Origin: an uncultured Caldilineaceae bacterium
GTDB taxonomy: Bacteria > Chloroflexota > Anaerolineae > Caldilineales > Caldilineaceae
Assembly: GCA_958295915.1 (NCBI GenBank)
Contig: OY282381.1
Location: forward strand, 3,494,722-3,558,721
Length of the DNA: 64,000 bases
Direction: 5' to 3'
In this document: piece by piece, positions 61,819-64,000 of the stretch
Layout of the letters: each line of letters opens with the position of its first letter
Position numbering within the stretch: position 1 is the first letter of the stretch
Made by a program: the position numbers and the translations under genes
Notes under the pieces: model-generated
The model's database searches: none
What the model saw: only the letters and a program-made list of their open reading frames with translations
Told to the model about the DNA's origin: nothing

Positions 61819-62433
61819 ATGAAAATTCTACTGACAGCGGCCGGCGCGCAGCGCTCCGCAGCCTTGGCGGACTGCCTGGCGAGGGCTGCGCCCGAAGAGA
61901 GAGAGGGGAAAGGGCAAAGCCCGAACAAGACCCACGAGATCCGGCTGACGGAGCGGGTGTATGTGGAAACTGAGCACGAATTCGCGCAGTGTGGGCTGGG
62001 CCACGACCGCTCGACGAATCTGCTGGTGCGGGGAATGGATGCGATCATTCACGCCGTGGACCCCGTGCCAGGAGAAGATGTTAGCACGCAGATCGACACG
62101 GCTACCCGCTGCACATACAATCTGCTGATGGCCGCGACCGAGGAAGGGGTACCGCGGATAGTGCTGCTGAGCGCACTGGAGCTGATGGCCGATTATCCCG
62201 ACCACTATCGGGTAGACGAGCGCTGGCGGCCCCTGCCCCGCACACAACCGCCGACCTTATCGGCGCATCTGGCCGAACAGATCAGCCGCGAGTTCGCCCG
62301 CGAAGGCAAGCTGGCGGTGACGATCCTGCGCCTGGGAGACGTGCCCACAGAGACCGTCGCCGCAGCAGTTCATGGGGCGCTGACGAACGCCAGCGCCTGG
62401 TCGATAGCGCATATAGGAGAGATAGCCTTATGA
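61819..62433 (+). CDS. NAD-dependent epimerase/dehydratase-like protein, short
   Basis: 204 residues, AAAAGGAGACCAC before the ATG. It starts MKILLTAAGAQRSAALADCL, with the Rossmann glycines partly altered, and continues RGMDAIIHAVDPVPGEDVST, YNLLMAATEEGVPRIVLLSAL, which follow the extended SDR plan. The catalytic YxxxK is not seen, and the protein lacks the substrate domain, so activity is doubtful. Charged residues APEEREGKGQSPNKTHE early on may be an insertion. ATGA overlap with the next gene. Confidence 0.65.
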   Translation: MKILLTAAGAQRSAALADCLARAAPEEREGKGQSPNKTHEIRLTERVYVETEHEFAQCGLGHDRSTNLLVRGMDAIIHAVDPVPGEDVSTQIDTATRCTYNLLMAATEEGVPRIVLLSALELMADYPDHYRVDERWRPLPRTQPPTLSAHLAEQISREFAREGKLAVTILRLGDVPTETVAAAVHGALTNASAWSIAHIGEIAL

Positions 62434-63179
62434 ACGTACTCATTCTCGGCGGCGCCGGCATGCTCGGCCCGTATGTGGCGCGCCAACTTGCGCCTCGGTA
62501 CACGCTGCGCATCACCGACGTGAAGCCGCCAGCAGAAGAGCTGCCCGGCGAGTTTCGCCTGCTGGACGTATCCGACCTGGACGGGGTCGTGGAAGCGGCC
62601 GAGGGCATGGATGCGATTATCAATCTGTCCGTCCTGCGCCGTCACCGCAAAGTCGCCTGGGATGTAAGTGCCCGGGGCTGCTACAATATGATGCAGGCGG
62701 CGGTCACACATGGCATTCGCCGGGTGATCAACACCGGCCCTCATTACACAGTCGCAGGCCGGAACATCACCGAGTGCTTCGATTTCGGCATCGGCCCGGA
62801 CATTCCCCCTCAATCCGGCGCCGATCTCTATGCCATTACGAAGTCGATGGGCCTGGAAATCTGCCGCATCTTCAGCCAACATCACGACATCAGCGTGCAG
62901 ACCTATCTGTTCTACAACTTCAAAGACCCGGCGACCATCCAGCCCGGTGAACACCACGCGCCCTTTGTCATCTCCTGGGAAAACGCGGCCGAAGTCTTCC
63001 CGTTGGGGTTGGAGATCGACCTGGACGCCTTGCCCTCCCGCTGTGAAGTGTTCTATGTGTTCGCCGATATGCCCCATGGCAAATTCAGCAATGAAAAGAC
63101 GAAACGCATCCTCGGCTTCCAACCCCGCCAGGACGTGGAAACGCTGTGGAGGCGGACGGCTGTCCCTCCACATCTGTGA
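62430..63179 (+). CDS. NAD-dependent epimerase/dehydratase (extended SDR)
   Basis: 249 residues. The NAD motif is GGAGMLG, then DVSDLDGVVEAAEGMDAIINL, CYNMMQAAVTHGIRRVINTG and the catalytic YAITKSMGLEICR (Tyr and Lys). The substrate-binding lobe is short. It acts on a nucleotide sugar or similar substrate, unknown here. Likely one transcription unit with the preceding gene. Confidence 0.8.
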   Translation: MNVLILGGAGMLGPYVARQLAPRYTLRITDVKPPAEELPGEFRLLDVSDLDGVVEAAEGMDAIINLSVLRRHRKVAWDVSARGCYNMMQAAVTHGIRRVINTGPHYTVAGRNITECFDFGIGPDIPPQSGADLYAITKSMGLEICRIFSQHHDISVQTYLFYNFKDPATIQPGEHHAPFVISWENAAEVFPLGLEIDLDALPSRCEVFYVFADMPHGKFSNEKTKRILGFQPRQDVETLWRRTAVPPHL

Positions 63180-63417
63180 GACATGCGCAGGCGTTCGGTT
63201 CGGTGAAAAGGCTGCCGAAAATTTCGGTAAAGGTGAAAGTGGAAAGTTAGGAAACCCTCCACGATCACTCACCTGAAAACCGTCTGACACCTTACTATTC
63301 TCCTGTTTATAGTTGACACAGATCGACAATGACGGATTGCACAATCTGAAAATCGTTTGCCTACTCATGTTACGCAGTAGTTGACGAAGCGTGTAAAATA
63401 AGGTCAGGAGGTGAATC

Positions 63418-63468
63418 ATGGGCTTCAAGCTCTTTAGATCTGTACACAACTGTCGTCTGAGTCGCTGA
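63418..63468 (+). CDS. Possible 16-residue peptide with strong ribosome site
   Basis: AGGAGGTGAATC precedes ATG, giving MGFKLFRSVHNCRLSR and a stop. Could be a leader peptide or a remnant of a gene start; too short to judge. Confidence 0.25.
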   Translation: MGFKLFRSVHNCRLSR

Positions 63469-63487
63469 TTTGAAGCGTTTCCGGTTG

Positions 63488-63515
63488 TTGACAGCGGAAG
63501 ATATACCTCTATAAT
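63488..63515 (+). promoter_or_regulatory. Perfect consensus sigma-70 promoter
   Basis: TTGACA (63488-63493), 16 bases, TATAAT (63510-63515). The expected start of transcription (about 63522) is only six bases before the ATG at 63528, with no ribosome site, so the message would be almost leaderless. Confidence 0.85.
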
Positions 63516-63527
63516 CAAACAACTTTT

Positions 63528-64000
63528 ATGGGTATAGACGATTCAGAATTTACCGAGCGCAACTCGGTAACTAAACCGCCCATCTGCTTTCATTGCCAGC
63601 ATGATTCCTTTGTACAACCCTTTAACGTGAGCCAAACTCAGGGCATAAAGATGCTTGTTCAAACAATACAAAGACAAGTCCCTATTGGGGAAAACGTTAG
63701 ATTCTTGCGAAAAGATGGACGTGAGATATCTGGATGCCTGGTTGAACTTAGCCAGGATCACGTTACCTTAGATAGTTCAGGAAAACGAACCACAATACTG
63801 ATAGATATGATAGGGGGCTGGGAGATCTTGCAGGACACCTTGCCGCCTGCAAGTGACGAGTCTGTTAGCAAAACTGTCATTTCTGAGCAGGAAAATAGTT
63901 CCGATGGCAGATCGGACATTCCCTCTGACAGAAATCTTGAGGAAGTCCTGAGAATTATTCTTAAGATTGAAGCCCGCTTTCAAGCCAATTTAGCGGCAGT
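63528..64000 (+). CDS. AT-rich partial gene with a possible Sm-like domain
   Basis: 157 residues are readable and the frame is open at the window's edge. A CFHC pair lies at about residues 20-23. Residues about 52-85 (VPIGENVRFLRKDGREISGC, then LVELSQDHVTLDS and TTILIDMIGGWEIL) have the alternating pattern of a small beta-barrel resembling Sm/Hfq-type domains. The next part is Ser/Asp/Glu-rich and probably flexible; then LEEVLRIILKIEARFQANLA starts a helical region. Codon use and G+C differ clearly from the flanking genes, so recent transfer is likely. I cannot name the family. Confidence 0.6.
   Translation, partial: MGIDDSEFTERNSVTKPPICFHCQHDSFVQPFNVSQTQGIKMLVQTIQRQVPIGENVRFLRKDGREISGCLVELSQDHVTLDSSGKRTTILIDMIGGWEILQDTLPPASDESVSKTVISEQENSSDGRSDIPSDRNLEEVLRIILKIEARFQANLAA

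Follow-up and report, generated by a model that had tools for sequence, protein, structure and literature searches.

The closest described systems are the mobile two-gene nSTAND2 operons, for which Kaur et al. (2021; eLife, PMC8195603, Fig. 6C) predicted a counter-invader role without experiments; their effectors are variable and most often HEPN or GT4. No laboratory study of such dual-STAND two-gene systems was found in the portions of the literature available, where they stand as predictions. Swt1-like HEPN domains fused to a STAND ATPase, TPRs and S1 have also been described (Anantharaman et al. 2013; PMC3710099, Table 1), and an action on RNA has been predicted for the CoCoNuT systems (PMC11090510), in which an NTPase is combined with cold-shock folds and HEPN effectors.

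The locus described here begins at the end of a stretch of 64,000 nucleotides (the window), bases 3,494,722-3,558,721 of the complete 5.06-Mb genome of an uncultured Caldilineaceae bacterium, and was followed into a 20-kb continuation stretch (L009; window coordinate = 62,000 + L009 coordinate). Close relatives found by search were mostly Chloroflexota. A maximum-likelihood two-breakpoint fit places a fall in G+C from 61.5% to 45.0% at window position 63,205 and a return to 62.7% at 70,245, beyond the window (log-likelihood gain of 179). The flanking SDR and rnhB genes are kept by all 16 congeners searched, the SDR gene lying outside the block; congener matches run up to about L009:1150 on the SDR side and from about L009:8405 on the rnhB side, and the 7.2 kb between the two genes is missing from every one of these genomes. 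Junction sequences show that the SDR-rnhB distance is only tens of bases in several congeners. The block is thus an insertion of foreign DNA. The initial annotation had placed the edge of an AT-rich foreign block near the window end, had expected most of an accessory system with an Sm-like gene to lie beyond it and had proposed comparing the boundary with relatives; this core reading is supported by the breakpoints, the congeners and the continuation DNA, and the system proves to be a pair of STAND ATPases, one of them with an RNase-type HEPN domain (genes A and B; Table 1).

The block's right edge (L009:7914-8384, window ~69,914-70,384) carries several other dispersed repeats of the same genome, one of which has 24-nt inverted arms. 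A dispersed repeat also lies at the left edge, so that both insertion edges are repeat-rich. The SDR-rnhB gap of one congener (L082, genome G236) contains more than 1 kb of repeats that look tandem, with units of about 110-120 bp. Insertion at a tRNA gene, or together with some known RNA, was rejected, as there is no tRNA in the 20-kb stretch and no Rfam match within the block. A clear target-site duplication was not found at the insertion, where only short or distant repeats were seen.

Table 1. Features of the block and its surroundings (window coordinates; values above 64,000 lie in the continuation DNA)
Feature	Coordinates	Strand	Basis or remark
Left chromosomal neighbour, NAD-epimerase/SDR-like gene	62430..63179	+	73-75% DNA identity to 16 congeners
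AT-rich block, left part	63205..64000		Breakpoint fit, absence from 16/16 congeners, junction sequences
Whole AT-rich block, ~7 kb	63,205 to ~70,245 (L009:1205-8245)		G+C breakpoints
Dispersed repeat copy, left block edge	63362..63444	+	Genome repeat search
Short open frame MGFKLFRSVHNCRLSR inside repeat, after ribosome-site-like AGGAGGTGA	63418..63468	+	Similar short frames in two other copies
Perfect sigma-70-type promoter, TTGACA-16-TATAAT	63488..63515	+	Pattern search; near-consensus sites before A in several relatives
Residues 1-41 of A, with CxxC pair (CFHC)	63528..63650	+	Extension missing in every aligned relative
Gene A, 1611 aa	63528..64000 in window (first 157 codons), on to ~68,363	+	Open frame on continuation
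Hfq/Sm-like small beta-barrel domain, residues 42-101 of A	63651..63830	+	AlphaFold2 model, Foldseek
Gene B, 496 aa, STAND + Swt1-HEPN	~68,375-69,865 (L009:6375-7865), outside window		~12 nt after A
rnhB, right of block	~70,382		Follows block

From its N-terminus, the product of gene A has an Hfq/Sm-like domain, a cold-shock domain with TPRs on either side of it, and then a predicted beta-sandwich followed by a STAND ATPase. Pfam recognises the TPRs, the cold-shock domain (CSD; 3.7e-8, residues 402-468) and an AAA/nSTAND1-like region near 1217-1516. An alignment of relatives, read by eye, suggests the beta-sandwich at about residues 1086-1208, and the C-terminal end may be winged-helix-like. 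The N-terminal part had been annotated as containing a small beta-barrel of Sm-like type, and structure prediction agrees: an AlphaFold2 model built from 21 sequences (pLDDT 84) has one helix and five strands in the Sm order, and most of the top 50 Foldseek matches in the PDB are Hfq (TM-score 0.6-0.7), with a designed SH3-like barrel also among the matches. Profile searches of the same part, likewise proposed at the outset, yielded weak matches only. Pfam gave no LSM or Hfq match above the cutoff for the window domain (best match, RimP C-terminal SH3, 0.012); among the 21 members of the domain set, LSM appeared in three, at best at 0.015, and SM-ATX and Hfq-related matches in others. A PDB sequence search returned LSm4 (E 0.016). 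The N-terminal domain is accordingly described as an Sm/Hfq-like fold, as modelled, and not as a member of the Hfq/LSM sequence families. Judged by their folds, this domain and the cold-shock domain would bind RNA; Sm-like and OB folds can bind protein or DNA too.

Gene B encodes an AAA/STAND ATPase followed by an HEPN_Swt1 domain (PF18731; 3.6e-7, 30.9 bits against a cutoff of 27.5). The catalytic Rx4-6H motif of HEPN is intact (RNPLAH), and R-N-P-x-A-H is retained in most B proteins of relatives, with loss in two (L106 and L115). The Walker A and B motifs are intact in both ATPases of the window genome; in B, Walker A (GxxRxGKSS) and Walker B (DEFD) are also intact in most relatives, and are eroded only in the two whose effector has been swapped (L121 and L123). 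A model of a B relative of 60% identity (pLDDT 87) has an ATPase that resembles archaeal STAND-type ATPases, Orc1/Cdc6 and TnsC and, less strongly, plant NLRs (NRC receptors) and Avs5 (EfAvs5, 9.3e-4). PADLOC model PDC-M34 matches only the HEPN part, and the block is therefore not the same system.

Profile-profile comparison matched B (E 1e-27) and A (E 9e-18) to Pfam-nSTAND2-positive proteins. The nSTAND2 family is absent from the Pfam matches shown for A and B of the window genome, and in one relative (L078) it reaches 17.7 bits, short of the cutoff of 24 bits. Arginines are invariant at R172 and R189 of B and at R1358, R1435, R1462 and R1464 of A; the nSTAND2 description has a conserved arginine finger in both proteins. 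Taken with the description by Kaur et al., these profile matches suggest that the A-B family is a variant of the mobile two-gene dual-STAND operons. As far as that source describes them, the nSTAND2 systems share with A-B a mobile two-gene operon in which both products are STAND proteins of the same clan, and an HEPN RNase is among their commonest effectors. They differ in that the effector-bearing STAND of the nSTAND2 system has eroded NTP motifs, whereas those of A-B are intact in the HEPN-bearing copies; the erosion reported in the available text was not seen in B of the window genome. The Hfq/Sm-like domain, the TPR-CSD-TPR sensor and the kinase effector of the A-B family are unmentioned in the text of Kaur et al. 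that was available. Against that text, the Hfq-like and cold-shock sensor architecture, the intact motifs in both ATPases and the kinase effector are new here; the subfamily may already be among the examples in the figure or source data of PMC8195603.

Other known systems share parts of this arrangement. The HEPN fusions of Anantharaman et al. (PMC3710099) likewise combine a Swt1-type HEPN with a STAND ATPase, TPRs and an OB-fold, but there these lie on the HEPN protein, whereas A-B divides them between two genes, has a cold-shock domain instead of the S1 OB-fold and adds a second STAND and the Hfq-like domain. A STAND switch, a sensor region and an effector also occur together in the NLR-like antiviral STAND ATPases, such as the Avs type, in one polypeptide rather than two strictly paired ATPases, and the structural similarity of these proteins to B is weak. 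CoCoNuT systems are built on a McrB-type GTPase with McrC, and the genes of the block match no such architecture in Pfam or PADLOC. Weak matches to A within the class were mostly paired STAND operons again. Such operons (L085-L097) recur in the class and encode two STAND ATPases, with large partners bearing beta-propellers, HEAT or other repeats.

A scan of 84,980 genomes recovered 27 A loci. B, also with a STAND/AAA core, directly follows A in all 26 loci on continuing contigs, and the 27th contig ends soon after A. Co-divergence, judged by distance correlation, was strong (Mantel r 0.81; 0/2000 permutations). Strict two-gene pairing of this kind, together with mobility, would be expected of a selfish pair of toxin-antitoxin type, with B as a toxin that A restrains and no sensing of invaders, and HEPN domains are common as toxins (PMC3710099). 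That reading is very improbable: with 1600 residues, several domains, an ATPase and sensor-like repeats, A greatly exceeds the usual antitoxin, and B has an ATPase switch of its own.

The module has been widely transferred. The 27 loci span Chloroflexota, Cyanobacteriota, Latescibacterota, Poribacteria, Bacteroidota, Bacillota, Spirochaetota, Pseudomonadota, Thermodesulfobacteriota and one unplaced genome. A class search found gene A in 0/5 same-genus and 0/9 same-family genomes, and full-length homologues (51-56% identity) in four genomes of other families. The nearest copies to the A protein of the window genome come from one Spirochaetota and one Bacillota genome (57-59%), while several Chloroflexota copies reach 43-45%, which fits repeated transfer; several of these are from metagenome bins, so that single assignments may be wrong. 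Compared with its flanks, the module is richer in A+T at 22 of 23 loci (median -9.4 points). A chromosomal homologue of normal composition in sister genomes without accessory neighbours, which the initial annotation had named as evidence against its own reading, did not appear: the congeners lack the block, homologues are scattered over distant phyla, and several sit beside defence-type genes. Carriage by phage or plasmid was not supported: viral contigs scanned by pattern contained no relative, B had no tblastn match in plasmids and A had none in phages. Some copies are damaged, through an insertion, frameshifts or truncation: one gene A is split by an inserted transposase-like gene (L078:3781-10114, by eye), and A or B frames are broken or truncated in L105, L108 and L114.

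The effector of the family varies, and most members have HEPN. In Thermogemmatispora (L079/L123) its place is taken by a protein kinase (2e-37), and the C-terminus of B in Tengunoibacter (L080/L121) differs and carries an RNDRTH motif; a GT4 effector was not seen among A-B relatives. The kinase variant would suit a signalling or transcription module, in which the paired STANDs adjust gene expression through an output domain (winged helix, kinase or HEPN, the last perhaps as a binding domain), as would the wider Anaerolineae operons, whose small, B-like nSTAND2 proteins end in a winged helix (Trans_reg_C), a protein kinase or uncharacterised parts. Such a module is nevertheless improbable, since the catalytic RNPxAH is intact in most close relatives and would be needless in a pure binding domain.

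Neighbours of the pair, picked by eye, include AbiLi-like (AbiL-resembling) genes in L104 and L122, a PLD-helicase-like gene in L116, NERD-UvrD in L103 and nSTAND1-WD40 in L115; as so selected, they agree with the conflict-system model. An NYN-domain protein with effector-associated domain EAD11 (L120:7578-8594) is encoded immediately ahead of the A-B pair that diverges most. Beside the pair in the window genome no further defence gene was seen, which is compatible with a cellular stress-response or RNA quality-control module, where A would sense RNA state under stress and B would trim RNA; RNA metabolism is also the usual context of Hfq-like and cold-shock folds. This is unlikely, however, given the lack of the block in all congeners, the scattered, AT-rich copies in about ten phyla, and the exchange of the effector in some relatives and breakage of the genes in others, a pattern of conflict systems.

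The block is thus probably a horizontally acquired two-gene conflict module, likely anti-phage and of the abortive-infection type. A would be the sensor and switch: its Hfq/Sm-like barrel and its cold-shock OB-fold among the TPRs would bind RNA of the invader, free or in complex with protein, and sensing would switch the state of its C-terminal STAND ATPase. B would be the effector: its STAND ATPase, which belongs to the same clan, would assemble with A into a mixed oligomer, and its C-terminal Swt1-type HEPN RNase would then dimerise and cut cellular and viral RNA, halting growth ahead of phage release. A tentative further proposal is that the pair is NLR-like, with direct detection of invader RNA or of a disturbance of cellular RNA by the Hfq-like barrel and cold-shock fold, a mixed two-STAND ring that activates HEPN, and an effector position freely exchangeable between RNase and kinase. 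The subfamily is compact, with two genes in 6.3 kb; it occurs in about ten phyla, and the catalytic motifs of its two ATPases and of the RNase domain are intact. Its two folds of RNA-binding type are an obvious candidate sensor, so that trigger, partner assembly and effector could be tested separately, and the lineage in which a kinase has replaced the RNase offers a natural experiment on how modular the coupling of effectors is in STAND immunity.

The promoter upstream of A, presumed to drive the A-B operon, had been called flawless. Its sequence and position were as annotated, and the window has no second site of this kind (100 shuffles give an expectation of 0); in the genome it is not unique, being one of 14 perfect TTGACA-N16-18-TATAAT sites in the genome, against 0 for a reversed control pattern. 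Across loci, the best promoter-like site 5' of A outscores random stretches of the same loci (8.8 vs 7.4 of 12, p 3e-5, intergenic AT-richness being uncontrolled). An open frame does begin at the annotated start of 63,528, but aligned relatives of A all begin at or near the residue matching Met42, and the true start codon may be at 63,651. The leader would then be ~127 nt long, with residues 1-41 perhaps untranslated, and the description of the mRNA as nearly leaderless, which depends on the upstream start, is unproven. The CxxC pair, previously assigned to the N-terminal part of the gene, falls within these residues; they are missing in the relatives, so that a zinc-binding CxxC was ruled out as a family feature.

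The dispersed repeat at the left edge (TACTCATGTTACGCAGTAGTTGACAAAGC..TAGAATAAGGTCAGGAGGTGAAA) has 22-23 copies in the source genome (including L010, L011 and L012-L026), and a search of the 16 congeners for its 22-base core pattern (<=3 mismatches) gave no match. It was rejected as a standard promoter, as its TTGAC(A/G) and TA(G/A)AAT boxes are only ~7 nt apart. About 16 copies stand before genes of one family, encoding small coiled-coil proteins whose C-terminus is hydrophobic (MATTAAPASLEERIARLE..), with five of these in a single tandem array; the other copies of the repeat are solitary. The short open frame in the block's copy is possibly a decayed leader. Many copies (L013, L014, L016, L018, L020 and L022) have a ribosome-site-like AGGTCAGGA facing a later CCTCCTCTCTGACC able to pair with it, with a small hairpin between the two, an arrangement which, as seen by eye, suggests a translation-controlling leader.
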